64,000 nucleotides of DNA from Verrucomicrobiota bacterium (GCA_038744685.1 JBCDMB010000011.1:1-64000), one strand, 5' to 3'; shown: positions 5,444-29,854, counted from the first letter of the stretch. The notes: a model not told the origin generated them from the letters alone. Made by a program: numbers and translations.

Positions 5444-6466
5444 TCAGCCGTTGGTGAAGATCCCAACGAGCGGAACGCGATCTGCCGTGCTAACTCCGAG
5501 AGCCCAATTGGCCGCATCCGCCAACTCGGCATTAGTTGGACCAGCGTCGTCTGAAAGCTCACCAGTCCACTTCATGCCATCCGGATGGATGATTTGACGA
5601 GTGCGGTCATAGATCCCGGTAACGTTTTTTTCCTTGTCCATGCTACGCTGGAGCGAGGCCACGTCGATTACGTCCAGACCCTGAGGCTTGGCACCGTAGC
5701 CAAAAGAACCAGGGGCAAGAATATAAGTGTCGTAGACGCTACCGGAGGTCTGCCCCGGACGGGCAAGACGCCGGTCGGTAATGATCTGCAATTCTCGGAA
5801 CATTGTGATCGTCAGACTACCACGTGAAACGTAATGAAAATCGTTTTCATCAAGCTTGCGGAGCGCGGCGATTATGTTGCTGTGGGCGTAGAGAATACCC
5901 CCTTGAAGGGAATCTCCCAGATCGCCCATCACAGCGACCGCATCGGTGATGAGGTCGGAATCGATCAGCTCTGGAGTTCCGCCCACGGCATCTTCATCAA
6001 ACGCACCTACTGCATTCGCAGAGAGAGCGCCTCCTGAACCTTCCGAGATGATTCCACGAAGGATGTTCATCAACGTGGTCTGGTTGCGGAAGCGGCGGTT
6101 GGTTGCCAGCTGGCTAAGGATGTTAGCCACTGGGTCTTGAGTGCGGCCCGGCGTGTTGCTGATCGCTGTGGCAAGAGCTTCAACGCCCCAACCTTTCTCG
6201 CGATTCATGATCGCTGCAATGTTCATGATGTCGCCATGAGCGCCAAGGCTGATCGTTCCTCCCTGGTTGGTCTCCGCATCCTCGGAGAGGTCACGGTAAC
6301 CGGGGACGTTGATCGTCAACCCACCGCCCGAAGCGGCCTGGTCGAGAAGATCGTTTTGAACGAAAACGGGAGAGCCGATAAGGGAGGGATCGGTGCGGAC
6401 TCTTTCGTTAAGCCCCTGAACCCATACTTGAGGCTCCCACAAGTCGGAAATGGTAGTAGCTGCCAT
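5444..6466 (-). CDS. Phage major capsid protein
   Basis: 340 aa. The start (ISDLWEPQVWVQGLNERVRTD) and the stretches INVPGYRDLSEDAETNQGG and GILYAHSNIIAALRKLD are typical of P22-coat-like/HK97-fold major capsid proteins of siphophages; the C-terminal part carries the MKWTGELSDDAGPTNAELAD-type loop seen in these coats. It follows the protease/scaffold gene, is preceded by a 59-nt leader with its own ribosome site region, and is followed by a strong hairpin, all expected for the most highly expressed phage gene. Confidence 0.75.
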   Translation of the reverse strand: MAATTISDLWEPQVWVQGLNERVRTDPSLIGSPVFVQNDLLDQAASGGGLTINVPGYRDLSEDAETNQGGTISLGAHGDIMNIAAIMNREKGWGVEALATAISNTPGRTQDPVANILSQLATNRRFRNQTTLMNILRGIISEGSGGALSANAVGAFDEDAVGGTPELIDSDLITDAVAVMGDLGDSLQGGILYAHSNIIAALRKLDENDFHYVSRGSLTITMFRELQIITDRRLARPGQTSGSVYDTYILAPGSFGYGAKPQGLDVIDVASLQRSMDKEKNVTGIYDRTRQIIHPDGMKWTGELSDDAGPTNAELADAANWALGVSTADRVPLVGIFTNG

Positions 6467-7714: not shown

Positions 7715-9268
7715 TTAATTTTCTTCTGGATCGATTGGGGGTTCTTCGGGCTCTTCTGGGGGTTCGGTTGGCACCGCCGCCGCATTCTTCATCTCCTCTG
7801 GCAAGAGCCCCCGCAGCAGATACAACTCCGGGACCTCGATCCCATCCTCGTCAGCATCCTCGGGAATCTTGCCGGTCGCCTTCATCAGGCTGATATACGT
7901 CGCCCGACGTTTCGCAAAAATCTCTTCCGGGGAATAGCCTAGCTCCTCCCAAATGTCTTCAACCCCTACCTCTCCGGTCTTCAACCGCGTCTCATTGGCC
8001 TTCGCGGTTTTCTCATCGTCGAGGACTTGAGGCTCTCTCCAGCGAAACTCCCACAAATCGGTCTGACCGGTCGGATGCGGGGGAACGTCACTTTCTTTAG
8101 TCGCCTTCGCCAGACGCCAGCCAATGAGACGATCTAAGAAGTTCTCCTTCGCAAAGTTTTGATAACGGCGGCGGCGGCCAATCCAGAGCGTTCCCAGGCC
8201 CTTATATCCCGAATACGAAACATCCCCAACGCCCGAGAACCAAAGCTCAACCGGAAGCCCAATCGGACAAGAAATTTGATGAAGCAGGATAAAGATCAGC
8301 TCCTTGTAATCTTCGGCCCTATACTCCGACATCAATTGATGAAGCTTTTCGCCCGGCTCCAAACCAATGAAAGTGCCGTTAGTCAGTTTAATCGTTATCG
8401 GCTCGTCAGTATCGCGATCAGCGGGGGAATTCTCGTCTTCAGCCGCGGCGTTCGATTCGTCGGGAAGCTCGCTTTGTTTATCCATCCAGTCAGCCGCGCC
8501 GTCTTTCTCGATGGCTCCGCTAATCTGGTTGGCATCCTTGATCTGCTTGGTTTTGGACCGGCAAATTTCGTAAAGATCACGAGCCGGTCGAAGAGATGCC
8601 AAAAGCCAAGGCAGACCACGGCCCATCAATACCCGATCTTTCCGCCAAACATGGATGACAAAACGGGCGGGGATCTCCACCGGCTCGGAGAAATCAACAA
8701 GTCCATAACCGTTGAGCTTGCCGAACAGATAGGCAATCGGCGTTCCTGAACGATTGTAAACAACCCCGTTCATCTCGTATTCGCCATTTTCGCGCGGAGC
8801 GTATTGACCAGCGATAGACCGGGAGCCGCAAAGCTCGGACGTGATCAATTGAATCTTCCCATTCGGGCGGAGAACCGCAAAAATTTCTCCTGCGATCAGC
8901 ATCTCCCGCCAAAGAATCTCCTTCACCGTGTGGAGACTATCCCGCTCTGGAGTGACCATATTCCCCCAAAGCCGAATGAAGCGATCCACCGTTGAGTTGA
9001 AATCAGCATCGGGAGTCCGTTGACGAACCTCCGGGCGACCGATAGCGCCGGGAAACTCTTCAACCAGACCTGCTAAAAAAGCATTGTTGCGAACTTCCGA
9101 GCGGAAGCGCCCAATCGTTGTTGATCGGATCGACGGTGCAAAATGGTAATCCTCGAACCCCCGGATCGGCTGGCCGAAATCGGCCTCGTTCGTTGTCGCC
9201 GAAGCATCATAGACCGCGCCCAGCTCAATGGTTTTGCGGGGAGATTTGTTCAGAGGCGCAACCATCAT
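7715..9268 (-). CDS. Phage portal protein, lambda type
   Basis: 517 aa, the usual size for the lambda gpB family. Diagnostic stretches are RSEVRNNAFLAGLVEEFPGAIG near the start, EILWREMLIAGEIFAVLRPNG, IHVWRKDRVLMGRGLPWLLASL and ISCPIGLPVELWF. The C-terminus is Glu/Pro rich. It forms the dodecameric ring at the capsid vertex through which DNA enters. The start overlaps the gpW-like gene stop (ATGATGG); a second ATG is the next codon. The order terminase, gpW, portal, protease, capsid matches lambda. Confidence 0.85.
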   Translation of the reverse strand: MMVAPLNKSPRKTIELGAVYDASATTNEADFGQPIRGFEDYHFAPSIRSTTIGRFRSEVRNNAFLAGLVEEFPGAIGRPEVRQRTPDADFNSTVDRFIRLWGNMVTPERDSLHTVKEILWREMLIAGEIFAVLRPNGKIQLITSELCGSRSIAGQYAPRENGEYEMNGVVYNRSGTPIAYLFGKLNGYGLVDFSEPVEIPARFVIHVWRKDRVLMGRGLPWLLASLRPARDLYEICRSKTKQIKDANQISGAIEKDGAADWMDKQSELPDESNAAAEDENSPADRDTDEPITIKLTNGTFIGLEPGEKLHQLMSEYRAEDYKELIFILLHQISCPIGLPVELWFSGVGDVSYSGYKGLGTLWIGRRRRYQNFAKENFLDRLIGWRLAKATKESDVPPHPTGQTDLWEFRWREPQVLDDEKTAKANETRLKTGEVGVEDIWEELGYSPEEIFAKRRATYISLMKATGKIPEDADEDGIEVPELYLLRGLLPEEMKNAAAVPTEPPEEPEEPPIDPEEN

Positions 9269-9525
9269 TCCATCGAAGTTTTGGTCTGCGCGATCCCCGA
9301 ACGACGGCTAGTCCCGTTAAGCCGATTCTCCAGCCGAAGAATATCATCCCTCAAATCCCGCTTACGCTTGAGCGCCCGGTTATAGGAAATTTCGGTTACA
9401 GAAGACCCGCCAATTGACCAAGAGCCCCCGTTTTTTTCGTGCCGGTCTATTGTTGCCTCAACCCGGGCCAACTCAGTACGCAGACGAATAAGCCGCTGAC
9501 CAATAGTTTCCTTTTCGACAGCCAT
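9265..9525 (-). CDS. gpW-like head-tail joining protein
   Basis: 86 aa. Two charged helices (TIGQRLIRLRTELARVEATIDRHEK and the C-terminal RALKRKRDLRDDILRLENRL) flank a short Gly/Ser beta hairpin (GGSWSIGGSSV), the pattern of the small gpW family that joins head and tail below the portal. It lies directly before the portal gene with a 4-nt overlap, exactly as gene W does in lambda, although the large terminase upstream is now separated from it by a foreign insertion. Confidence 0.65.
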   Translation of the reverse strand: MAVEKETIGQRLIRLRTELARVEATIDRHEKNGGSWSIGGSSVTEISYNRALKRKRDLRDDILRLENRLNGTSRRSGIAQTKTSME

Positions 9526-9569: not shown

Positions 9570-9818
9570 TCAGCCCACATAAGCCTTCCGGCGTGCCGAA
9601 TAAAACGCACTCCAAGTCCTAACCCCTATAACCCGCCCAAACACCGAAACAGCAATCCGGTTGGCCCGATCTCCCTGGCGAATGACATACTCTACGGAAG
9701 CATACCCCGGACGCGTCACCCGCTCCACCATAAGCAACTCCCCCTCCATCGGAGGATAGTCTCTGGGAGGTCCAGCCATTCTATTCGCAGCCTGCACCAC
9801 CTGCGACCGTCGACCCAT
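9570..9818 (-). CDS. Small phage protein beside the insertion
   Basis: 82 aa from the ATG at 9818 (MGRRSQVVQAANRM), basic, with a likely beta domain (ELLMVERVTRPGYASVEYVI, then IAVSVFGRVIG). The frame stays open upstream to 9938, but bases beyond 9890 belong to the inserted cassette array, so that extension is not original. If the array is removed, the stop TAA of the gene at 12390-12605 lies in the same frame 24 codons upstream of this ATG. A TTG within that space is another possible start. Function unknown. Confidence 0.5.
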   Translation of the reverse strand: MGRRSQVVQAANRMAGPPRDYPPMEGELLMVERVTRPGYASVEYVIRQGDRANRIAVSVFGRVIGVRTWSAFYSARRKAYVG

Positions 9819-9903
9819 CCGCGAACACCGTTCACGAATAGCCTTCTGCTTCCTCTGTCGGAAACTTTGCAAAGTTAGGATATCAACTTGTTCTGCAAAG
9901 GAA

Positions 9904-10320
9904 ATGAATGACATCACCACAGTGGAAGGAATCGGCAAAAAGTTTCGTGAGTATGTGTCTACCCTCGATCTTCCACAATACTATAAGACCTTCCACACTA
10001 CACCCCAACATGACGGATCGCCACATATCGAAAGTGAAGGAAATGAATTCCATTTTGTGGTTACTGAGCGGGGTGAAGAATTCCAACGCATAAGGTCTTT
10101 TGATCCCAATGAAATCCTCTACCTTCTTCTGAGTGGCGTTACTCACTACGCAGCTACGCAGCATGAACTAAAGAACAGAATTGAAGGAAAGGATTGTCGG
10201 GAGATATTCTTTCCTCACCAAGAGCAGCTTCTCCATCAAATGAATCCGACATGGGGAGAAAGAAAAAAGAAGGAGCATGAAGTTATCTTATCGAAGCACC
10301 CTCTACGAAATGAAACCTAG
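9904..10320 (+). CDS. Imm63-family immunity protein (cassette 1)
   Basis: 138 aa. Start TTVEGIGKKFREYVSTLDLP, then PHIESEGNEFHFVVTERGEE, DPNEILYLLLSGVTHYAATQ, HELKNRIEGKDCREIFF and the closing KKKEHEVILSKHP match the pattern I know for the Imm63 family of polymorphic-toxin immunity proteins. No cognate toxin is seen nearby, so it is an orphan. It starts 13 nt after the insertion junction and stops two bases before its hairpin, the compact layout of a gene cassette. A second ATG four bases later is in another frame. Confidence 0.75.
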   Translation: MNDITTVEGIGKKFREYVSTLDLPQYYKTFHTTPQHDGSPHIESEGNEFHFVVTERGEEFQRIRSFDPNEILYLLLSGVTHYAATQHELKNRIEGKDCREIFFPHQEQLLHQMNPTWGERKKKEHEVILSKHPLRNET

Positions 10321-10322
10321 GA

Positions 10323-10384
10323 GCAGAACAAGGCGGTGGTGGCAACGCCGCTAGCGCGCCGTCGCCACACCTTAGCGTTCGAGA
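10323..10384 (+). repeat. attC-like hairpin 1
   Basis: Outer boxes GCAGAAC and GTTCGAG enclose arms AAGGCGGTGGTGGCAACG and CGTCGCCACACCTTAGC, which pair with a few unpaired bases. The junction G^TT is at 10377/10378. It shares AACAAGGCGG and CACCTT-NN-CGTTC with the hairpin at 11770-11839. Confidence 0.6.
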
Positions 10385-10608
10385 AGAGAAAAATGAAATC
10401 GAGCAAGGTATTGATTCCGTGTGATTGAAGTGAATACAACTGCTTGGAAAGAATACCAGCAGGATGGAACAGAGTTTCTCACAGAGGCACCAAGGCACAG
10501 AGAGAAACAAGCTCTGTGTGCTCCGTGCCTCCGTGAGAGAATGGCATTTGGGATCTGCCTCTCAGCTTAGGGTCTTTGCATCTTGGCGTGAGCCCTCCCC
10601 ACTCCGAC
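10385..10608 (+). pseudogene. Cassette 2, no intact gene
   Basis: An ATG lies 15 nt after the junction, like in the other cassettes, but its frame stops after 11 codons (MKSSKVLIPCD). No other frame gives a convincing product; the open frame at 10464-10697 runs through a hairpin repeat and has the low-complexity content of that repeat. The unit therefore looks like a decayed cassette that was also invaded by a dispersed hairpin. Confidence 0.4.
10477..10539. repeat. Dispersed hairpin repeat (CACAGAGGCAC family)
   Basis: Arms TCTCACAGAGGCACCAAGG and CTCCGTGCCTCCGTGAGA are inverted around a short centre. The family (ACCACRGAGR.. arms) also occurs at 11096-11181, 29588-29678 and around the dead GxxExxY gene at 41943-42160. 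Here the arms hold no cargo. Confidence 0.7.
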
Positions 10609-10711
10609 TCGAACAAAACGGCATAGGCAACCCGATGAACGTCTCCGTGAAATCGACAACCCATAGAACGCTGGACCTCTCAGGCCGGGCCGCCTAGCCT
10701 CTACGATAGAC
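10609..10711 (+). repeat. attC-like long repeat, copy 1
   Basis: Begins with CGAACAAAACGGCATAGGC and ends CGCCTAGCCTCTACG^AT. The arms TAGGCAACCCG and CGGGCCGCCTA pair, and the middle (AATCGACAACCCATAGAACG, then CTGGACCTCTCAGG) is nearly identical in the copies at 11259-11344, 12300-12389 and, inverted, 29419-29506. It closes cassette 2. Confidence 0.65.
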
Positions 10712-10718
10712 CGAAGGA

Positions 10719-11006
10719 ATGGAAATCGAAACAATCATATGGGGCGTGTTTCCGTTAGTCTTGTGCGTTGCCTTCACATTTTGGAGTATCCAATTATCTC
10801 GAAAGCGAATAAGGGTTTGGAAGATAATCCTTTCAGCTTTGGTTCTGCTGTCTTTGACCTTTTCCGGGTTGATTCTCGTCAATATGATTCGGGGTGCGTG
10901 GCCTACGTTTATCCCGCATATAGTGATCGGAACCGTCTTCGTCGTGCTATGTCTGCAGCAGCTTTTTACTTCACTGAAAAATCGAGGGTCTATCCAGGCG
11001 AGGTAG
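10719..11006 (+). CDS. Small membrane protein (cassette 3)
   Basis: 95 aa with three hydrophobic segments (about 5-23, 34-55 and 62-80), separated by short basic loops (QLSRKRIRVWK, SLKNRGS at the end), so it should sit in the inner membrane. The ATG is 13 nt after the recombination junction, with GAAGG just upstream. No family recognised; small membrane proteins of this kind are common cassette cargo and may be immunity or resistance factors, which is only a guess. Confidence 0.6.
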   Translation: MEIETIIWGVFPLVLCVAFTFWSIQLSRKRIRVWKIILSALVLLSLTFSGLILVNMIRGAWPTFIPHIVIGTVFVVLCLQQLFTSLKNRGSIQAR

Positions 11007-11072
11007 TCAACCCGAGTTTCACGCCCGGCCTTGTGCTTGAGTCCTCAGGCTCGGTTGCCTACTCTTTACGAT
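11002..11072 (+). repeat. Degenerate attC-like hairpin
   Basis: GTAGTCAACCCGAG near the end of the membrane gene pairs with CTCGGTTGCCTAC about 35 nt later and is followed by TTTACGAT. This looks like a shorter, diverged relative of the long attC-like repeat. If it was once active, the following 11073-11250 stretch would have been a separate cassette without a gene. Confidence 0.4.
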
Positions 11073-11095
11073 ATGGGGAGAAAGAAGAACCGAAA

Positions 11096-11344
11096 CCACG
11101 GATGACAGATGGGCACGGATAAGAGAAGAAGAAGGGAATGAAGCCGATCTATCCGCGTAAACCGTGATATCTGTGGTCAGAAAAAGAATGGAATGACGGT
11201 AATGAACTCGTTCGGTATATCCCGACTAACCGGGCACATTCGGTGGCCATATCCAGCCGGCGTAGGCAACCCGTTGAACGCGCCCGTGAAATCGACAACC
11301 CATAGAACGCTGGACCTCTCAGGCCGGGTCGCCTAGCCTCTACG
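11096..11344 (+). repeat. Composite ~250-nt dispersed repeat, copy A
   Basis: Made of three parts in order: a CCACGGATGACAG..CTGTGG hairpin, a spacer with GGTATATCCCGACT and GGCCATATCCAGCCGG, and a full copy of the long attC-like repeat ending TCTACG^TT. The same three parts occur in the same order on the minus strand at 29419-29678. The last part closes cassette 3 and sets the start of the next gene. Confidence 0.75.
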
Positions 11345-11359
11345 TTGGAAAACAAAATA

Positions 11360-11803
11360 ATGAAATCCTCTTCTAACCCAAAAACTGAAGATAGAGAAAC
11401 TCCATCTTCAGAAAATGAACTCTCTGAAGTGAACTTATCCGCTCCTTGGGGCACGGTTAATGGATGTCAAAATATTGCAAGAGTCTCGAGGATAGATGCG
11501 AAAGAATTTGTCGAAACTAGATCCAAGGTGCATGAGACCTACATAATCGAAAATGAAAAAACGAAAAGAATGTGCCTTTGGATTGCCTGTATTTCCTTTA
11601 TTTCAAGCTGTTTGGTTTTGATCTTTGGTCCTGAAGGAAAAGAAGTAATGACCTATCTTTTAGGAGCATCATTGATGATTATTTCAGCTGGAGCCGTGGG
11701 CTATAAAAGAGTATGGGGAAAGACTGAAAAATTTGAATTCGGTGCCAGTAATTTTGAAGAAAAAACCAATTCCAACAAGGCGGCAGAGAGGAATGCCGAG
11801 TAG
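11360..11803 (+). CDS. Two-helix membrane protein (cassette 4)
   Basis: 147 aa from the ATG 15 nt after the junction; an in-frame TTG at the junction itself is rejected. The N-terminal 75 residues are polar and Ser/Glu rich, then two hydrophobic helices (CLWIACISFISSCLVLIFG and VMTYLLGASLMIISAGAVGY) and a polar Lys/Glu tail. The end of the gene runs into the next attC-like hairpin, as often seen in cassettes. AT-rich compared with the phage genes. No known family recognised. Confidence 0.6.
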   Translation: MKSSSNPKTEDRETPSSENELSEVNLSAPWGTVNGCQNIARVSRIDAKEFVETRSKVHETYIIENEKTKRMCLWIACISFISSCLVLIFGPEGKEVMTYLLGASLMIISAGAVGYKRVWGKTEKFEFGASNFEEKTNSNKAAERNAE

Positions 11804-11839
11804 CTCCGCTCCTCAGCATCCCTCACCTTCCCGTTCTGC
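11770..11839 (+). repeat. attC-like hairpin 2
   Basis: Outer boxes TTCCAAC and GTTCTGC; arms AAGGCGGCAGAGAGGAATGC and GCATCCCTCACCTT pair with bulges on one side only. It overlaps the last codons of the upstream gene. Junction G^TT at 11833/11834; the sequence after it (TTCTGCAAAAGAAAATG) nearly repeats the one that starts cassette 1. Confidence 0.6.
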
Positions 11840-11847
11840 AAAAGAAA

Positions 11848-12291
11848 ATGATATCACTCCAAGAAGAGATTTCCGACATTTTCTCCGTTTTGCACGATGG
11901 GCACATTGAGAGTTCAGAACGAAATGAAGACACCCTTTCTTTTTCGGTTTCCATAATGTATCTCACCGAACGAATTGAAGGTTCCAACATGATACACGTC
12001 GCACTCTTTGGTTATCGCAACTCCGAGTTTATAGCGTGGATGAAAGATGGAAATAGTAAGACCATCTCGGACTACTCCTTGACTGACTTAGACATTCTTT
12101 CTGGAAAAGTAGAAGAAGGGAGAATCAGGGCTGATTTCAGCAATCATTCCTCTGATTCAGAGTACTGTGGAGGCACCCTTTATTTTGAATGCGATTCATA
12201 TGCCATTGAGGCCCCCGAAGGAAAGTCGATAACTCTTCACGCCATCAAAGAAGTTGCCGCAAAGTATTGGGGTGATTTCGGTAAAAAGTAG
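11848..12291 (+). CDS. Unknown soluble protein (cassette 5)
   Basis: 147 aa, acidic, no membrane segment or signal. Mixed alpha/beta pattern: EEISDIFSVLHDGHIE, then LSFSVSIMYLTERIEG, IHVALFGYRN and the C-terminal helix HAIKEVAAKYW. Size, acidity and fold pattern are reminiscent of SUKH- or Imm-type small immunity proteins, but I cannot name a family. The ATG is 14 nt after the junction and the stop touches the next attC-like repeat. Confidence 0.6.
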   Translation: MISLQEEISDIFSVLHDGHIESSERNEDTLSFSVSIMYLTERIEGSNMIHVALFGYRNSEFIAWMKDGNSKTISDYSLTDLDILSGKVEEGRIRADFSNHSSDSEYCGGTLYFECDSYAIEAPEGKSITLHAIKEVAAKYWGDFGKK

Positions 12292-12292
12292 G

Positions 12293-12395
12293 CAGAACAA
12301 AACGGCGTAGGCAACCCGATGTTATCGCCCGTGAAATCGACAACCCATAGAACGCTGGACCTCTCGGGTCGGGTCGCCTAGCCTCGACGTTATGC
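12293..12395 (+). repeat. attC-like long repeat, copy 3 (array end)
   Basis: GGCAGAACAAAACGGCGTAGG opens it and GCCTAGCCTCGACG^TTATGC closes it. Arms TAGGCAACCCG and CGGGTCGCCTA pair; the pairing extends outward imperfectly (AACGGCG against CGTCGAGG-type bases). The two bases after G^TT are also the end of the TAA stop of the phage gene on the other strand, marking the right insertion edge. Confidence 0.6.
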
Positions 12396-12605
12396 CTGCA
12401 TTTCGTAAGCGATCCCGCGCACGTATTTCCACGGGTCACCTATGGCTTCGCGGCGTTCGTAATGCTTTACAAAGCGAATCTTGCCCGCAGTGGTCGGCGT
12501 GGCACGACAAGTAATCTTCCAGAGTCGCCGCTTAAGGTAGCGCCGAACGGGGAAGGCATAACAAGTCGCGGCACGAGAACCGCTCTTAATAGCTTCAGTG
12601 TTCAT
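12390..12605 (-). CDS. Small basic phage protein at insertion edge
   Basis: 71 aa, very basic (KRRLWKITCRATPTTAGKIRF, HYERREAIGDPWKYVRGIAY). Start overlaps the upstream gene by 11 nt. Its stop TAA is placed exactly at the right junction of the cassette array; in the uninterrupted phage it would have been followed by the bases now at 9890 and below, in frame with the next gene. Function unknown. Confidence 0.5.
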   Translation of the reverse strand: MNTEAIKSGSRAATCYAFPVRRYLKRRLWKITCRATPTTAGKIRFVKHYERREAIGDPWKYVRGIAYEMQA

Positions 12606-12933: not shown

Positions 12934-14778
12934 TTACTTCTCAACTTGAATACTTCTTTTCGTCTTTATCTTCCTTCGGCGGGCGGATTGCCTTTGCTGT
13001 AGCGTTCTGAATAACGCCAAGATATACACCTCATCGTCAAACTTGTGGTTGGGACCGACAGCGTAAAACTCGTGATCAGGAAGCCCCAAGCGTCTCTTTT
13101 TGCGGGGGCGCCTCTTTTCATTCAAAATCTCGCGATAGTAGTTTTTCTGGTCCTCGATTTCCTCTCCAGTTGGATCGGCCCCTAGCCGATAACTCCACCA
13201 ATTCTGAATGTCGCCATTGATCCGCTTCTCAATCTCGACCTTGAACGCATACAGCGAGATATCCAACTTGGGGACCATGATGTTCGCCTTCTGCTTCGTA
13301 TCTCCCATATAGACGTTGGCTTTGGTTACTTTCGTAAGGGTTTTCGCAACTTCAAAACCTTCTGCTCCGATCCAGTTCATATGAACACGATGATAGATCG
13401 CCTCAAGCGTCTCAGCACGCCGATCCTCAAAGTTGATATCCCCAATCACCCAGGACGTCCCAAAATGAGAGTAATCGTCCTGAACAGCTTGCAAATCACT
13501 CCAACTAGCCGCTAGCCCATCGTCGATCTTGTAGGATTCACCTGTCCATTGAAAAGCTCGACACACCCACGGAAGACCCCACGTCTGCACATCGAAACCA
13601 ATGATGACCACATCGGCCTTCCACCCCTCAGGAAGAGCGCCTCGTTCGTAATCCTTTTCCAATGCCGCGCATTTATCCACGGAGAGATCAGCGACATTAT
13701 CCACCCAGACCATACCCATCCGTGCGTTCCAAAAGTCCTGCCGGTCGACATAGAAACCGTCTGAACGGGCCTGAAGAAAATCACGAGCCAACCTACCCAA
13801 CGAGTGCGCCTTCAATACGCCATCGAGACCAATGTTTTGATAACTCCGGTAACCAGGAGAGGCTTTCCGGGTTGGCCTCCACTCACCTTGCCGAACGACT
13901 TCCAAACGGACCTCATCATCCCACAGTTCACCTGTCTCCGGGCATTTATACCTTGCAGTGTTCATCACGCCTTCAAGATCCCATTCGCCATCTTCCTGCT
14001 TACACTCTTGATCCCATACCACGTTCGCCCACTCCATCGCGTGCCGCTCTTTCGCACCAGGAAACGAGACAAACCAGCGACGAAGATCGCCTTTAAGAAC
14101 CTCTTTCCACTCAAGGGACTTCTCCCTCCTTGGAGTCGTCGAGTAGTAGTGCTTGCGACGATTCTCAAAAGACTCCGTCCGGTGCATAGACTGTTCGACT
14201 ATCGCCGCTTCATCTTCGGTTGCGGGTCGCCACTTTCCAACCTCATTTCCAAACACGCGAACCACGGTCTCACCGCTGACCTGAGCATCCGAGTTTGCCC
14301 CAAAAACCGTCAAAGCAGCTCCGGGGAACAACATCATCCCATCTCCGTAGTGATGCCGATTGCGGGGCTTTCGGGAACGCAAACACTGGTTCCCCTCAAC
14401 CAAGGGATGCCACTCTTTCTTGATAAAACCGCGACCCTTATCCATCGTTGAATCGATTAGAAGCGCGGGCCCTGGGTCGCCAGCGACACCGTAAGCCATC
14501 CCCACTTTCAACAAAAACGTCTTCCCGAATCGAGTGGGAGCAACATACCAAACCGTCTCAACTGCAGGATCACCGAGACAGTCGATAATCTCCTTCAAAA
14601 ACGGTCTACGATCAAAGGAAACGGGTCCAGGAGTCGTTTCATTTGCACCCGATGGCAGAACTATAGATCGCTCAATAAACTGCGAAGGCGTTTCAAAGTT
14701 ATGCGGACGGAAGAAATTTGCTGAAAAATCAAAGACAGACAAGCCGCCCCGAACGCCTGAATGAAGGTTACTAATCAT
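12934..14778 (-). CDS. Terminase large subunit, GpA-like
   Basis: 614 aa from the ATG at 14778, which overlaps the stop of the small subunit gene; a TTG four codons upstream is less likely. Residues 80-87 (APTRFGKT) form the Walker A-like motif of the packaging ATPase; ALLIDSTMDKGRG and AALTVFGANSDAQVSGET follow as in the GpA family. The C-terminal half has DVVIIGFDVQTWGLPW and WVIGDINFEDRRAETL, the acidic residues of the nuclease domain, and KFDDEVYILALFR. Cuts concatemers and drives DNA into the prohead. Confidence 0.85.
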   Translation of the reverse strand: MISNLHSGVRGGLSVFDFSANFFRPHNFETPSQFIERSIVLPSGANETTPGPVSFDRRPFLKEIIDCLGDPAVETVWYVAPTRFGKTFLLKVGMAYGVAGDPGPALLIDSTMDKGRGFIKKEWHPLVEGNQCLRSRKPRNRHHYGDGMMLFPGAALTVFGANSDAQVSGETVVRVFGNEVGKWRPATEDEAAIVEQSMHRTESFENRRKHYYSTTPRREKSLEWKEVLKGDLRRWFVSFPGAKERHAMEWANVVWDQECKQEDGEWDLEGVMNTARYKCPETGELWDDEVRLEVVRQGEWRPTRKASPGYRSYQNIGLDGVLKAHSLGRLARDFLQARSDGFYVDRQDFWNARMGMVWVDNVADLSVDKCAALEKDYERGALPEGWKADVVIIGFDVQTWGLPWVCRAFQWTGESYKIDDGLAASWSDLQAVQDDYSHFGTSWVIGDINFEDRRAETLEAIYHRVHMNWIGAEGFEVAKTLTKVTKANVYMGDTKQKANIMVPKLDISLYAFKVEIEKRINGDIQNWWSYRLGADPTGEEIEDQKNYYREILNEKRRPRKKRRLGLPDHEFYAVGPNHKFDDEVYILALFRTLQQRQSARRRKIKTKRSIQVEK

Positions 14779-15463
14779 TGGCTTTCTCAAACTGTGGACG
14801 GACCGACTTTAGCCGATCAGTAGTCTTTTCCAAGATCGCCTGAATCGCCTTCTCAATCACCGCTTTCGCCAATCCTGGGTTTTCCGGGTTAGCTTCTACC
14901 GCGATCGCACTAGGCAAAGTTAGCAGTTCGGACCGATGAGGCTGAAATACGTTCCCTACGACATCGAGGACTCGATCCAAGTCCAACAGCATCCCAGACT
15001 TTTCCTGAATCGCCAACCATTGAAGCCGCTGTTCACCCGCAACCTTGGCAGACTTGTTCCAAAGATCCAACGATTGGGTCAACCGATGGACGCTCCCTTG
15101 CTCTGCAGCTTGCTGATATAGCCTGTGCGCAATCAACGGGATTTCTTCCGCGTGACCAAGGATTACATCTTCGAACTCCTTACCTTCGGCCCCCGCCTTA
15201 ATTTCTTCGAAGTTGATGATTACTCCGGGCGCCGTCACACCTACGGACCCGTTCAAAATTGCAGGGTGATGTTTCCGAGCCCACTCGTCAGCCTGATCCA
15301 AAGAAGAGAAGGCAGGCATGTTCTTCTTCGATTTCAATTTTGAGACCATTGCCGGGCTGACTCCCCAATGTTTCGCCAGCTCTTTGCCTTGAATCATTCT
15401 TGAGACAGCCTCTCCGCTTGCTCCGTCCGCAGTCGCAACAAAGTCCCGATCAACCTTATTCAC
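14771..15463 (-). CDS. Terminase small subunit-like DNA-binding protein
   Basis: 230 aa. Residues ~25-55 (IQGKELAKHWGVSPAMVSKL, then KSKKNMPAF) are a winged helix-turn-helix like the Nu1 N-terminus; the rest is helical (EEIPLIAHRLYQQAAEQG, LDRVLDVVGNVFQPHRS) and fits oligomerisation. Position directly before the large subunit with an 8-nt overlap supports the call. It would recognise the packaging site and hand DNA to GpA. Confidence 0.75.
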   Translation of the reverse strand: MNKVDRDFVATADGASGEAVSRMIQGKELAKHWGVSPAMVSKLKSKKNMPAFSSLDQADEWARKHHPAILNGSVGVTAPGVIINFEEIKAGAEGKEFEDVILGHAEEIPLIAHRLYQQAAEQGSVHRLTQSLDLWNKSAKVAGEQRLQWLAIQEKSGMLLDLDRVLDVVGNVFQPHRSELLTLPSAIAVEANPENPGLAKAVIEKAIQAILEKTTDRLKSVRPQFEKAND

Positions 15464-15823
15464 AGTTAACCCCCCTCTGTAAATTTTTCACATAAAAAAA
15501 CGTAAGAATGAGCGGGAACTTCCAAATACCACCTCCCTGGAAAGGACCCGCAAATAACTCTTCAGAATTCGAGCGAACCCAAAGCCTTCTGACATCAAGT
15601 AGTTCTTCAAAGTTCCTTGCCGTCACGCCAACACAGCCAGAGAACACTAACGGGTTAAATAGAAAACCCCGTTTTGTGACAGTGTGACAGAAATACCATA
15701 AACCTATAAACGCACTCGCATACATGAAAGGTCGTCTCCCCGCTGTCACGCTGTCACAACCCAGTATCTCTCGAAGACGATAACGGTTTTTAGCTGTCAC
15801 AAATTCTAGGGTTGCTGTCACAA
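15464..15823. promoter_or_regulatory. Intergenic region with repeated TGTGACAG sites
   Basis: No convincing gene; the open frame at 15456-15827 has an odd composition. The octamer TGTGACAG or its complement CTGTCACA/G occurs six times between 15675 and 15823: two in direct tandem (15675-15690), two tandem copies on the other strand (15743-15758), then at 15794 and 15815 just after the helicase stop. Such spaced copies look like iterons or operators, separating the replication block from the packaging block. Confidence 0.5.
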
Positions 15824-17335
15824 TCACAACTCAACCTCCTTTTGCTCAAACGGTTTATCACTCGCTTTCTTTCTAAGAATCCAATTGCGAGAACCTGTCC
15901 CGCCTTCGCGTTCGTAGTATACTCGGCCTTGAAACTCTTCCTGCTTGGAGAGCTTCGTTAGAATCGTTCCGATCACACTAGCCGCCCACAGGTTGTCCTT
16001 TTCGGATCGACTCAGCTTCTCTGAATTCGCTAGAACGCTCTTCAGTTTTTCTGCACCGCCCTTCCATTCCGACACCGATTCAAAAATTCCACGTTCGATC
16101 AGCTCCCACAAATAGGCGGATTGTGACAGCGAATTTAATCCTCTCATCAAAGAAGGATGATGCCAAAAGCGAACGCCAAAACGCCCCTTGTTCTTCTCAG
16201 CAATCTCGTGGTCGAGCGCCCACTGGATAAAATACGGCAGTTCATAGACGAGCAGTTTCCAATAGGCTTCGCGTTCCGCTCGCGTTTTAGAGGGTAGAGG
16301 CTGTGGCTGACGGTATCCCTTTAAGATCATTAGCTTGTCCCGGATATCGTCATTGACATCCGGAAGGATCTTCAGGCGGTCTGGCTCATCGTTCAGCAGG
16401 ATCATCAATCGCCAGGTAGGGCGTAGTGTGAACCCGTCCTTCTGCATAGCCCTTATCCGCTGATCCAAATCCGCAACCATCACTTTGATCTCTGCTCCAA
16501 ACGCTTGGCGGGCAGCGTAAGTGGTGTTTGCGTTCTCGTCATCGATCGACAACAAAGGAGCCGTAAAAAGGTCGGCGTTGTGGGTCTCGGCCTTAATCAT
16601 GTAGCGATACGGTTTCGCAACCCGGTTCCCAACAGAGGATTGGACCAAGAGCTTTAGCAGAGACTTTCCGCAATCCGCTTCTCCAGCTAACGCCATCGCC
16701 AAACCCTGAGAGTGCTTACCCTCATAAATCGACTCAAGGAAGTGCGCCCACCAAGAAACGAATCGGTCTCGCTGATCACAATCCGGGTCAGATTCTTCGT
16801 CGTTCGGATCATTCTTGTGAAGAAGTAGATTACCTAACAGCATCCCGACTGTTGGAAAACCGTGACAGCCGCCAAAATAATCATCGTTATCCGAGTGATG
16901 CAGAATGCTGGCCACGCACTTGCGCAAAGTTTCGCGATCAGCGAATGCAAAAAGCCTGTTGACCTTCTTCTCCCATTCGAGACGCCAGCCATCAGCCGCT
17001 TTCAACGGTTCAATCAACTCAGGGTCCTTAGTCACTAGGACCGTATGACCAGAGATCGAGTGAACGCCCCTTTTCCAACCGGCTAAGTCGATAGCCATAT
17101 CGACACGATTCCCAAACTCGATTTCTGCCAACTTAGCGTCTAGAGGTGAAAGCAACTCTCCTTTGTCGGGGTGTGGGTCAAAGCCCCGGCCCTTCAATAG
17201 CCGCCTCATTCCAGGCTCATTCGTCGACACATAACGGCCAGTCTCCTCATGGAGAAGCCAATAGCGGCGGGACGATCCATCCTCGAAAAAGTACTCTTCC
17301 TTGGCGGGGGCCGTCAGGTCGTCTGTTAAGCTCAA
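15824..17335 (-). CDS. Phage replicative helicase, SF3-like
   Basis: 503 aa. Walker A at residues 218-225 (GEADCGKS), Walker B-like LLSIDDEN near 260, and a motif C-like stretch WRLMILLNDEPDRL around 310 place it with the superfamily 3/D5-type helicases of phages and plasmids. The C-terminal ~100 residues form a winged-helix-like part. The start overlaps the primase stop by 4 nt. It would unwind DNA with the primase upstream. Members of this type often act without a separate loader. Confidence 0.7.
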   Translation of the reverse strand: MSLTDDLTAPAKEEYFFEDGSSRRYWLLHEETGRYVSTNEPGMRRLLKGRGFDPHPDKGELLSPLDAKLAEIEFGNRVDMAIDLAGWKRGVHSISGHTVLVTKDPELIEPLKAADGWRLEWEKKVNRLFAFADRETLRKCVASILHHSDNDDYFGGCHGFPTVGMLLGNLLLHKNDPNDEESDPDCDQRDRFVSWWAHFLESIYEGKHSQGLAMALAGEADCGKSLLKLLVQSSVGNRVAKPYRYMIKAETHNADLFTAPLLSIDDENANTTYAARQAFGAEIKVMVADLDQRIRAMQKDGFTLRPTWRLMILLNDEPDRLKILPDVNDDIRDKLMILKGYRQPQPLPSKTRAEREAYWKLLVYELPYFIQWALDHEIAEKNKGRFGVRFWHHPSLMRGLNSLSQSAYLWELIERGIFESVSEWKGGAEKLKSVLANSEKLSRSEKDNLWAASVIGTILTKLSKQEEFQGRVYYEREGGTGSRNWILRKKASDKPFEQKEVEL

Positions 17336-18624
17336 ACCGTTACCTCCTCGTTGACCAACCCAAGATCGTAAACCGCTTGGATCATCTCTTCACGGCTCGG
17401 CGACTTCGCCCGATAGTAATCATTAAAATCCTTGCCCCACGGCCCCTTCAGAATACGCACCTCCACCTTTGCTCCGTATATTTCAAGTCTCTCGCGGAAC
17501 GATGGATTCTTTTGGCGGATGCCATACCAACTTTTCCCCGCTTCATCCGAGTCTCCAACCATAAACACCCCTCGATTCTTCAACCCTCGGGCATAGTGAT
17601 CCATAAACGCCGAAACTCCCTGCACTCCCCGTATTCCAAAAATCGCCACAGAGAACGGAAGATCCGGGATTTCATCAAAAAGACCCAGAGCGCCCCAAAA
17701 CGTCAGCGCATCCCACTGCCCCTCCGTTAAGATCCACAGATCCGCCTTCCAAGGGTTTCCCAACACGAACGGGACCGGCGGGCACCATTGATCGCCCTCG
17801 CGAATACCCTCGCCATCAGCGGCCGCCAACAACGCCCTCTGATACACCGTCCGCACCACCTTCGGACGATGCGGGAAAAAAGTCCAACCCTTGCGCCCCT
17901 CGTCTCCGCCATCCTTCGGAGGGACAAAAAACTGTTGGTGGTATCCAAAAAAGTGACGGCTAACATCCTTCAACACCACTTCAACGGGGAAAGCCACAAA
18001 ACGCTTACCCCTTCCTTGCTCTCCAAACTGATCAACCGGAAACCGCAACCATCCCGCCTCCGCTGCAAACCCTGCCCAATCAAAAGGCCAACCCCGCTTC
18101 TTTGCCAGCTTCGCAAGCCGCTCTTCTCCAGGCTCAGAAGCCTCCTGCCAACGCGAACGAACACAATCCGGACAATCCATCAACAAAGCAGCCCCCAACC
18201 TCCGCAGATCGGCTTCCCGCTTCTTTCTGCGTGCGACCATCTCCTCTCTCTCCTTGCGCTGTTTCTGTAGCCTCCATTCTCGCTTCTCAGCAGCCGTCAA
18301 CGTCCTCTTCTCACGGGACGCCTCCCAAGCTCCCGCACCCATCACCCGATCGACAATACACTTCGCCACCTCAGCCTTCGACCACTCTGGACGGCACTTC
18401 TCGACAAACGTCCAGGAATTGCCTCCCTCACCAGTCCCGAAATCTTTCCACAACCGCAAATCCTTCGAAATGGAAAATCCCGGCTTCTTCCCGTCCTCTC
18501 GAAACGGGGATTCCAGCACCCCATCACGAGTCGGGACCGACCTCCCAAACCCAAACGCCGCCGCCAAGTCCCAGACATCGGCCAACGTGACCCGCTCCAG
18601 AGCCTCTGAGACGACATCACTCAT
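17332..18624 (-). CDS. Toprim-domain phage primase
   Basis: 430 aa from the ATG overlapping the clamp gene stop (ATGA). The N-terminal ~80 residues (ESPFREDGKKPGFSIS, LWKDFGTGEGG) match the substrate-binding part of DnaG/phage primases but lack a full CHC2 zinc ligand set. A charged helix follows (~105-145). The Toprim part shows LWILTEGQWDALTFWGALG, with its catalytic Glu, and VFMVGDSDEAGKSW, with the DxD-like acidic pair. It makes primers for phage DNA synthesis together with the SF3-like helicase. Confidence 0.75.
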   Translation of the reverse strand: MSDVVSEALERVTLADVWDLAAAFGFGRSVPTRDGVLESPFREDGKKPGFSISKDLRLWKDFGTGEGGNSWTFVEKCRPEWSKAEVAKCIVDRVMGAGAWEASREKRTLTAAEKREWRLQKQRKEREEMVARRKKREADLRRLGAALLMDCPDCVRSRWQEASEPGEERLAKLAKKRGWPFDWAGFAAEAGWLRFPVDQFGEQGRGKRFVAFPVEVVLKDVSRHFFGYHQQFFVPPKDGGDEGRKGWTFFPHRPKVVRTVYQRALLAAADGEGIREGDQWCPPVPFVLGNPWKADLWILTEGQWDALTFWGALGLFDEIPDLPFSVAIFGIRGVQGVSAFMDHYARGLKNRGVFMVGDSDEAGKSWYGIRQKNPSFRERLEIYGAKVEVRILKGPWGKDFNDYYRAKSPSREEMIQAVYDLGLVNEEVTV

Positions 18625-26307: not shown

Positions 26308-26616
26308 ATGACCAAAAAACCAACAGTCAACGCCGCCGCTGCCACACTCGACGAAATCCTCTCTGAGCTTCCCGTCTCCCAGAAGGAAGTTGCAGAGGCG
26401 ACCGGCATCCCGACCGCCCACCTCAGCATGCTCAAGGCCGGAAACCGCCGCTTTACACCGGAATACGACCTCCGCCTCTCGCGCTACTTCCGCCAGAGCG
26501 AAGGCTTTTGGCTGCGCCTGCAAATGCGGGCAGACATCCGCAAAGCCAAAGCCGAAAAACCCGGCATTACCAAGGAGGTCAAAGCCATCGACCAGCGGAA
26601 GCTAGTCAGCGCCTAG
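26308..26616 (+). CDS. higA: HigA-type antitoxin
   Basis: 102 aa from the ATG just after the toxin stop; a longer frame that begins inside higB is rejected. Helix-turn-helix LPVSQKEVAEATGIPTAHLS then MLKAGNRRFTPEYDLRLSRY, and FRQSEGFWLRLQMRADI is the conserved HigA C-terminal core. It should neutralise the toxin and repress the promoter. The end overlaps the integrase 3' end by 15 nt, tail to tail. Confidence 0.85.
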   Translation: MTKKPTVNAAAATLDEILSELPVSQKEVAEATGIPTAHLSMLKAGNRRFTPEYDLRLSRYFRQSEGFWLRLQMRADIRKAKAEKPGITKEVKAIDQRKLVSA

Positions 26617-27792
26617 GATTACCTCTGGTGCCAACCTCCAAAACCTCCCCGCCTTCTCCTGATTCCCCCGGGCGAGGTTCCAGTAATCCCGCCGGGCAAC
26701 CGGCTCGGTATTGCCCATCTGCCCGGCCAACCGCCCAACGTCCCATTCATGGACTGGCAACCAATAGGTGGCGAAAGAATGGCGCATGAAATCCTGCCGC
26801 CATTTCACCCCCGCCGCCTTGCAAATTCCCTCGCGATACCCCCGCGAAAAAGCAAAGAACGGCAACCGATGTTTCCTTAAATACCGTATCCATTCAATCA
26901 AGACAGGCTCCAACGTAACCACCCGTTGACTCTTCCGCGTCACCTTAGAGCGCAAAACGTGCAGCTCCCTTTCCTTCACAAAAACATTTCCCTTCTCCAA
27001 AAACGGAATTTCCGCCTCCGGTCGTAACCCAGCAAAAAAACCAAAGCACAAATACCCGAGCGCAACCCCCCGTCTGTCCCCGGCGGGCTCATAGTCGATT
27101 GCCGCCCTCAACAACGCCTCCACCTCGCCCGGCTCGGCGACCTCTGGAGCCTTCCAACCGATCTCCGGGACAGACAACCCCGCAACCGGATTCTCACGGA
27201 TCGCTTCCCGCTCGACCAGAAACTCACCAAAACGGTGCAACCGCGCCCGCACATTCCGCACCGTCAATGGAGCGCGGTTTTTCTTCAACCCATCCAAATA
27301 CACCCGCAGACGCTCCTTGGTAAAATCACTCACCCGCACAGCTCCCGTATCGCGGAAAAACTTTGTGACAGACTCCGCAAAAGACTTCTCCGTCTTCTCA
27401 CGCCGCCCATTGCCGTCCATCTCCTTCCGGGCTTCAAGCAACCACTCTGAAAGCGTCTTACGGGAATCGGGAGACATGGCTGCCAAGCCCGCCCTTACCA
27501 CCTCGCGAAGGTCAGAATCCCCCGCCTCCGTAAACGCCCACTCCGCGAGCCTCACCCGTTCTTCATCCAACCAAGTCTCGACCGCCCGCCTCCGGGACCG
27601 GATCGAATCGCCAAAAGCGACCACGGCAGCCCGCTTCTCTTCGGCCTCTCTCTCACTGGAAAACCGCCGGCGAACCTTCTCCTTAAACCCAAATCTTTCC
27701 CGCACCCGCCGGTCATGGACCCGCCCAAACAGCAAAAAATACCCCTCACGCGGCTCAACTGCCAAATGCCCCCAAGAATCCCGTTTCCCCAT
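26602..27792 (-). CDS. int: Prophage tyrosine-type integrase
   Basis: 396 aa from the ATG at 27792; a TTG 11 codons upstream is possible. N-terminal arm domain with AEWAFTEAGDSDLREVVRAG, core-binding SAM-like part (SFAESVTKFFRDTGAVRVSD, then RVYLDGLKKNRAPLTVRNVR), and catalytic part: Arg in GFFAGLRPEAE, RHSFATYWL, and the Tyr in ARRDYWNLARG. The usual His of box II is an Asp (DFMRHS) and the His of the box III is a Gln (AGQMGN). The gene points away from the tRNA-Ser whose 3' end is close by. It inserts and excises the prophage. Confidence 0.85.
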   Translation of the reverse strand: MGKRDSWGHLAVEPREGYFLLFGRVHDRRVRERFGFKEKVRRRFSSEREAEEKRAAVVAFGDSIRSRRRAVETWLDEERVRLAEWAFTEAGDSDLREVVRAGLAAMSPDSRKTLSEWLLEARKEMDGNGRREKTEKSFAESVTKFFRDTGAVRVSDFTKERLRVYLDGLKKNRAPLTVRNVRARLHRFGEFLVEREAIRENPVAGLSVPEIGWKAPEVAEPGEVEALLRAAIDYEPAGDRRGVALGYLCFGFFAGLRPEAEIPFLEKGNVFVKERELHVLRSKVTRKSQRVVTLEPVLIEWIRYLRKHRLPFFAFSRGYREGICKAAGVKWRQDFMRHSFATYWLPVHEWDVGRLAGQMGNTEPVARRDYWNLARGNQEKAGRFWRLAPEVILGAD

Positions 27793-27957
27793 GTTGTCCA
27801 AAAAATGTCCAAAACAGGCGTACAAGTGATCGCGAATGATCGCAAGTGATAAAAATAAACTCCTTGAGTTAGCTAAGAAACAAAGCCGCTAGAAAAACTC
27901 CAATCGCCCCACAACCCCACTACACAAAGCAAACAAGGGCCCTACGGCCCCAAATAA
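27793..27957. other. Integrase-tRNA intergenic region, likely attachment side
   Basis: No gene. It contains near repeats GATCGCGAATGATCGCAAGT close to the integrase and a small hairpin GGGCC-CTAC-GGCCC (27937-27950) that, on the minus strand, follows the tRNA and is trailed by TTG-TTTG, a weak terminator for it. The attachment core probably overlaps the tRNA 3' end; the partner site lies left of the window and was not seen. Confidence 0.4.
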
Positions 27958-28049
27958 TGGCGGAGAGGACGGGATTCGAACCCGTGGAACCCCTTTCAGG
28001 GTTCACCGGTTTAGCAAACCAGCGCATTCGACCACTCTGCCACCTCTCC
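27958..28049 (-). tRNA. serT-like: tRNA-Ser (anticodon GCU)
   Basis: The minus strand folds as a class II tRNA: acceptor GGAGAGG pairs with CCTCTCC, anticodon stem CTGGT/ACCGG with loop TTGCTAA (anticodon GCT, reads AGC/AGU), a long variable arm (ACCCTGAAAGGGGT), T arm with GGTTCGAATCC, discriminator G and an encoded CCA. Its 3' end faces the integrase, so this is the probable insertion target of the prophage, which would have restored it. Confidence 0.95.
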
Positions 28050-29338: not shown

Positions 29339-29854
29339 GGTCTTGTGGAGCAGCCGCTTCAGTTACCATTCGAAATCCAAATCGAAATCACTATCGGTCC
29401 CGAGCGCAGCGACTGTAACGTCGGGGCTAGGCGACCCGGCCCGAGGAGTCCAGCGTTCTGTGGATTGTCGATTTTACGGACGATCCCACCAAGTTGCCTA
29501 CGCCGGCTGGATATGGCCCCGAATGCTTCCGGCCAGTCGGGATATACCAAACAGGGCCGTTCCCTTTATTCCATTATCTTTTTCACTTAACCACGGAGAA
29601 CACGGAAAACACGGATCAAATAGTTTATTTTTTCTCTTCCTTCATCCATCCGTGCTCTCTGAGTCATCCGTGGTTCGTGTTCGTATCTCTTCCATATCAG
29701 AAAGGTCCCCGGATACTACCGATCACGATCCGATACCGATTGTTCTGGTCGGATGATATGAGCTGGCTTAATAACCGGTCATTGGAAAGAGGCATAACCT
29801 CTGAAATCGGATCGAAGGAATTGACTCCCACCTCGAAAACTTCCTCCATGAGGA
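29339..29854. other. Repeat-filled intergenic region
   Basis: Between marC and hflK. Contains short AATCGAAAT/ATCGGTATCG-type inverted pieces (29370-29400 and 29715-29745) on either side of the composite repeat. Open frames here run through repeats and are rejected. Near the end, TTCCTCCATGAGGAGTG forms a tiny hairpin overlapping the hflK start. Confidence 0.6.
29419..29678 (-). repeat. Composite ~250-nt repeat, copy B
   Basis: Read on the minus strand it has the same order as 11096-11344: hairpin AACCACGGATGACTC..TCCGTGGTTAA (plus-strand 29588-29678), spacer with GGTATATCCCGACTGGCCGG and GGCCATATCCAGCCGG, then the long attC-like repeat ending CCCCGACG^TTAC. No cassette gene follows the junction here. 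It shows that this element family is scattered in the chromosome and not only in the prophage array. Confidence 0.8.

Follow-up and report, generated by a model that had tools for sequence, protein, structure and literature searches.

A cassette array, very probably a CALIN, antisense in the late operon of a tRNA-Ser prophage from a Verrucomicrobiota bacterium

A prophage in the genome of a Verrucomicrobiota bacterium carries an insert of ~2.5 kb (9890-12389, plus strand) that is, very probably, a CALIN: six integron gene cassettes in one orientation, each with an attC site at its end, within a temperate phage that is now integrated at a tRNA-Ser gene. The six attC sites lie within 2.1 kb with no intI adjoining the array. 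This is not a complete integron, as intI is absent from the window (the whole 64-kb stretch of DNA that was analysed) and both ends of the array are phage sequence. The most likely course is insertion by IntI, with a non-classical, attG-like phage site as the target. The presence of cassettes in a phage is not novel, since attC clusters in phages have been reported (PMC9892861); it is an already-described phenomenon, of which the present case is an additional example. Here the donor integron, two intI genes, discrete cassette copies and the phage carrier are found together in one genome.

The cassettes and their attC sites

The left junction of the insert is at 9890, and the crossover G of the successive sites falls at 10377, 10705, 11070, 11344, 11833 and 12389. 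The bounds, the orientation, the hairpins and the G^TT/G^AT junctions had been described in an earlier, sequence-only reading, with which base-by-base reading and an attC model agree. That reading counted five units, having missed the site at 10992-11070; its single third unit splits into a coding cassette (10705-11069) and a non-coding one (11070-11343). It also placed G^AT at one junction, where GAT is in fact found at two of the six sites (G 10705 and 11070), with GTT at the remaining four. The inverted end of the sites reads AAC in four cases and ATC in two. As for its claim that an ATG follows each junction at constant spacing, the distance is near-constant, 14-16 nt past the crossover G, but this applies only to the four units that have a clear ORF.

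Cassette A (9890-10376) encodes the one product with a family match, a protein of 138 aa (CDS 9904-10320) that matches Pfam Imm63 with an E value of 4e-20, as the earlier reading had proposed for this cargo. Its attC runs from the AAC at 10327 to the crossover G at 10377. This is the sole Imm63 gene across its own genome and 17 relatives, and no match to the Imm63 cassette was found in phages, viral contigs or relatives. The other three ORF-bearing units are cassette C (10705-11069; CDS 10719-11006, 95 aa; attC from 10992 to G 11070), cassette E (11344-11832; CDS 11360-11803, 147 aa), whose short attC (11774 to G 11833) overlaps the end of the CDS, and cassette F (11833-12389; CDS 11848-12291, 147 aa; attC of the 90-nt type from 12296 to G 12389). 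By inspection, the cassette C protein is hydrophobic and that of cassette E has a hydrophobic stretch. None of the cassette proteins other than Imm63 matched a family above cut-off, PADLOC assigned none of the four to a defence family, and a single-sequence AlphaFold prediction of the cassette F protein was unusable (pLDDT 39).

Cassettes B (10377-10704) and D (11070-11343) have no clear ORF, and both end in attC sites of the 90-nt type (10612 to G 10705 and 11251 to G 11344, respectively). Each contains a REP-like inverted sequence (CACAGAGGCACC...; ACCACGGATGA...), at 10464-10545 and 11095-11175, and such a sequence is also present at 29580-29700 of the window. The G+C content of the insert is 46.6%, compared with 53.8% for the prophage and 45-49% for the chromosomal attC arrays.

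The attC sites were scored with a model that combines position weights and arm pairing, trained on 20 sites picked by eye from the arrays of two host contigs only (C5 and C51). The six top plus-strand matches in the 64-kb window are all within the insert: site A (10327-10377) scored 58.7, site B (10612-10705) 67.4, site C (10992-11070) 48.8, site D (11251-11344) 65.5, site E (11774-11833) 40.8 and site F (12296-12389) 75.5, the highest. Among 20 shuffled 64-kb windows, a single match reached 42.1, which is above the score of site E, and all others were at or below 35.4. An attC covariance search had been suggested beforehand as a check on the hairpins. When done with an Infernal model (R1) of seven 90-nt-type sites from the same two contigs, it matched four of the six sites, three of them at 110-116 bits (B, 110.6; D, 113.8; F, 115.9) and site C, at 10993-11075, at 20.3 bits. 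The genome as a whole gave 38 matches to the covariance model.

The canonical R' consensus GTTRRRY is not followed by the sites of the insert, in which GTT alone fits, and the host's own array sites depart from it likewise (GTTCTGC, GTTCGAC). Arm pairing in five of the six sites surpasses that of >99.8% of random window pairs, the exception being site C, whose stem is the weakest and, at 10% by this measure, not outstanding. The three 90-nt sites have a single bulged base at an identical position in the L'' arm. Bottom-strand folds beat those of shuffles in the short sites (A, z -3.6; E, z -3.2). Long sites folded whole did not outperform shuffles (z -1.4 to +0.3), their variable middle dominating the energy. 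No match was obtained from an Rfam search, nor from exact attC-core scans of the viral and genome contig collections. The model matches show that the sites belong to the same attC family as those of the host's own chromosomal integron, and the predicted sites may recombine today.

Copies of the cassettes and the integrons of the host

The own genome was searched at the DNA level for copies of each unit, and the alignments were inspected together with the 60 nt flanking either end. Three units (B, C and D) have cassette-length copies elsewhere, the best copy of each being 80-91% identical. Copies of unit B are found at C10:101894-102223 (91%) and C51:3441-3774 (85%), a copy of unit C at C3:228665-229016 (82%), and copies of unit D at C28:18607-18885 (80%), at 29417-29704 on the minus strand of the window (75%) and on C12 (71%). 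For units B and D, the homology spans from crossover to crossover, starting with GTTCGAG and GATATGG, respectively, and ending at ACG^TT; past these points the sequences are unrelated. The boundary of unit C is sharp at the 5' end, while at the 3' end its C3 copy is degenerate. The alignments therefore show that the units are discrete cassettes, clearly for B and D and, for C, at its 5' end. The same search gave no cassette-length copies of units A, E and F; a distant relative of cassette F (24%) is found within another attC array on C15. Together with the attC models from the host arrays, the cassette-length copies bear out the earlier identification of the units as integron-type cassettes.

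The unit D relative at 29417-29704 is a lone cassette that lies beyond the prophage, flanked by host genes, and carries an attC of its own at 29512-29419 on the minus strand (model score 64.3; 90.1 bits with the covariance model). A similar lone copy is the one on C28. Their appearance suggests that cassettes also insert outside the integron, landing singly in the chromosome.

Two complete IntI genes, both above the TIGR02249 cut-off, are present in the genome, on contigs C5 and C21; this whole-genome search returned no IntI match on contig C11, to which the window belongs, and none in the parts of the prophage seen. The earlier statement that the array has no integrase is thus accurate for the window and for those parts of the prophage, but not for the genome, with its two complete genes on other contigs. 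The best PDB match of the C5 IntI, over the whole catalytic length, is VchIntIA (2a3v, the Vibrio cholerae IntI), and the protein has the motif HxLRHSFATH. On C5 the complete intI is followed by a cassette array, the cassettes being in line with intI, and a similar array is located beside an IntI C-terminal fragment on C51. Such C-terminal fragments, possibly from decayed IntI genes, are found at C51:5962-6072, C16:49241-49426 and C3:37296-37397. Around the second complete IntI gene (C21:58028-58963), 17.9 kb were read without an attC site; since this gene is only 0.9 kb from the contig end, the contig may not include its array.

Arrays of attC sites were found on C5, C51, C10, C32, C47, C15, C12, C30 and C23, and several of them reach contig ends. 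They probably represent at least one large chromosomal integron that the assembly has split. At the contig edges, the C5 and C51 arrays finish in a common sequence of ~140 bp that probably represents a mobile element, an IS or an intron, that has entered the arrays. The same attC family is present in two congeners, with 19 and 16 matches, and absent from three other genomes of the order, so that the capture of the cassettes probably took place within the genus.

The prophage and the place of insertion

That the array lies inside a prophage, as the sequence-only reading held, is confirmed by a set of minus-strand genes: a terminase large subunit of the gpA type (12934-14790; Pfam GpA_ATPase, 7e-39; phrog_15, 3e-54), a portal protein of the lambda family (7715-9268; Pfam Phage_portal_2, 1e-29) preceded by a gene in the gpW position (9265-9525), a major capsid protein (5444-6466; phrog_247, 8e-40), and a tyrosine recombinase-type prophage integrase with an open reading frame (26602-27825; phrog_1, 2e-18). 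The small terminase and replication genes are also on the minus strand. A 65-bp direct repeat, corresponding to the 3' part of tRNA-Ser, marks the prophage ends. One copy (27956-28020) is in the tRNA-Ser gene at 27958-28049 and the other is on contig C37 (~18426-18490), where the adjoining minus-strand ORFs form a block that would fit the downstream structural module of the phage. The prophage is spread over two contigs, C11 beginning at window position 1. From the integrase beside tRNA-Ser, and the repeat beside the structural block on C37, we deduce a tRNA-Ser-integrated prophage of at least ~38 kb. With its integrase, attachment repeats and structural gene module, it has the features of a temperate phage. 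No close relatives were found for the terminase and capsid in viral contigs, or for the portal in genome contigs; terminases in genomes of the order are 22-30% identical, and those in phage records less than 60%. A second phage-like region in the same genome (C17:25000-60000) has otherwise unrelated genes, but shares one 100-aa gene (76%), and a further stretch of it is 77% identical to positions 1-404 of the window.

The array is antisense to the late operon and located within the terminase-portal interval, between two small phage genes that are both intact and on the minus strand. In the sense of the late operon, p71 (12390-12605, 71 aa, no family match) is directly upstream of the insert and p100 (9570-9872, 100 aa) directly downstream. 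The stop codon of p71 (TAA, 12392-12390) abuts the right junction, and the insertion breaks no phage ORF. We also considered that the insert might split one phage gene, p71 and p100 being in the same frame. This was rejected, because the TAA between them is the phage's own sequence and p100 is a separate gene in its two relatives, at C17:37135-37437 (76%) and in the IMG/VR contig L087 (70%).

In neither relative was an attC array seen beside the p100 gene, although L087 ends 26 nt upstream of it. The joined flanks of the insert read AACAAGTTGATATCCTAACTTTGCAAAG / GCATAACAAGTTGATATCCTAACTTTGCAAAG, to be compared with GAGAACAAGTTGATATCCTAACTTTGCAAAG in C17 and, less exactly, TAGAACAAGTTGTTATGAGAACTTTGCAAAG in L087. 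Both match the joined flanks on the p100 side plus two bases (AA) only. The comparison fits a G^TT as the original target; with only those two bases shared past the junction, it does not amount to proof of an empty site. An exact empty site was not found in the collections searched, which hold no close relative of this phage. In an IMG/VR relative in which the terminase is 45%, the gpW-position protein 49% and the portal 37% identical, the same interval is occupied by ordinary co-directional genes with no attC. A comparison with cassette-free relatives had been called for, and this relative lacks the cassette genes here. In more distant prophages of the order, the terminase, a small gene and the portal are mostly near each other.

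Origin of the array and comparison with known systems

Joining of the folded attC bottom strand by IntI is established integron biology. In the scheme that we favor, IntI of this host, or of a previous host of the same genus, would excise cassettes as circles and recombine attC, as a folded bottom strand, with a phage G^TT, the attG-like secondary site ...CAACTTG^TTATGCC.... The array could then have grown by further insertions, or one multi-cassette circle could have entered once. Given their orientation opposite to the late operon, the cassettes are unlikely to be transcribed from its promoter; if expressed at all, they would probably be expressed during lysogeny, from their own weak promoters. 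A promoter scan was no richer than chance. On induction, the cassettes would enter the particles along with the phage DNA and become available to the integron of whichever host is infected next, and the phage would in this way carry cassettes between cells. A broader proposal would be that temperate phages of this lineage repeatedly gain host cassettes through an attG-like G^TT between terminase and portal, invariably in the orientation opposite to late transcription, and regularly ferry them into the integrons of new hosts. We consider this improbable.

An alternative to insertion by IntI at a secondary site is that the array arrived in one block when the phage recombined, homologously or illegitimately, with chromosomal integron DNA. 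The units are indeed homologous to chromosomal cassettes, and there is mosaicism at this place in the phage, the sequence upstream of p100 differing between this prophage and C17. However, both junctions are exactly on the G^TT crossover, and the array is not flanked by attI, intI or a partial cassette, which makes a block transfer unlikely. Much less probable still is an assembly chimera, in which phage and integron contigs were joined through repeated attC sequence. The genome is a draft of 56 contigs, with integron arrays broken over several of them, but the sequence at the left junction is not repeated, each break coincides with the crossover and not with the interior of the 90-nt repeat, and phage genes continue on both sides in the expected order. 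Finally, it is hardly credible that the units are ordinary phage morons, i.e., small accessory genes with terminator-like hairpins: the terminase-gpW interval is variable in a related phage (L088), which has two additional ORFs there, co-directional and by inspection resembling a kinase and an SSB, but the attC model matches, the uniform antisense orientation, the cassette-like G+C, the cassette-length copies outside the phage and an intrinsic-terminator scan no richer than shuffles are all at odds with this, and for B and D it is refuted by crossover-delimited copies that lie in attC arrays or stand alone in the chromosome.

The array has several known counterparts. In a screen of 10,705 phage genomes, Qi et al. 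2023 (PMC9892861) obtained 17 CALINs and several complete integrons; six phage attC sites were tried with IntI1 and five were active. One of their cases, the Shewanella prophage vB_SspM_M16-3 (MZ568829; PMC9892861), is likewise a temperate phage with an integrase-less run of cassettes in one orientation, antisense to and between late structural genes (plus-strand ORFs at 14664-16921 between minus-strand baseplate and tail genes). M16-3 alone also has a complete integron, an attI at the start of the array and a broken phage integrase, whereas the present prophage has no intI in the parts seen, no recognised attI and an open phage integrase, and belongs to another phage family with the array at another place (terminase-portal). 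The Vibrio anguillarum phage Va_90-11-286_p16 (MK672802; PMC9892861) likewise has cassettes from the sedentary chromosomal integron of its host. In that case, however, a complete integron with intIA was gained, by excision at attC sites, while the present prophage has cassettes only, at an internal site. The host's own sedentary chromosomal integron (C5; probably also C51, C10, C32, C47, C15 and C12) has the same attC families, the same layout and shared cassettes, and differs in that intI is present on C5 with the cassettes in line, where the prophage array lacks intI and any recognised attI. The present case supports the proposal that phages move integron cassettes, and does so beyond the well-studied Vibrio and Shewanella cases.

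Insertion of cassettes outside integrons, at attG sites, is described by Loot et al. 2024, as cited in passages of PMC11023631 and PMC12901181. Going by these passages, such insertions resemble the present array in being outside an integron with a G-T core junction, and differ in their target, which here is a prophage. In this genome, cassettes appear to have landed outside integrons at G^TT/G^AT sites in two settings, in the prophage and alone in the chromosome.
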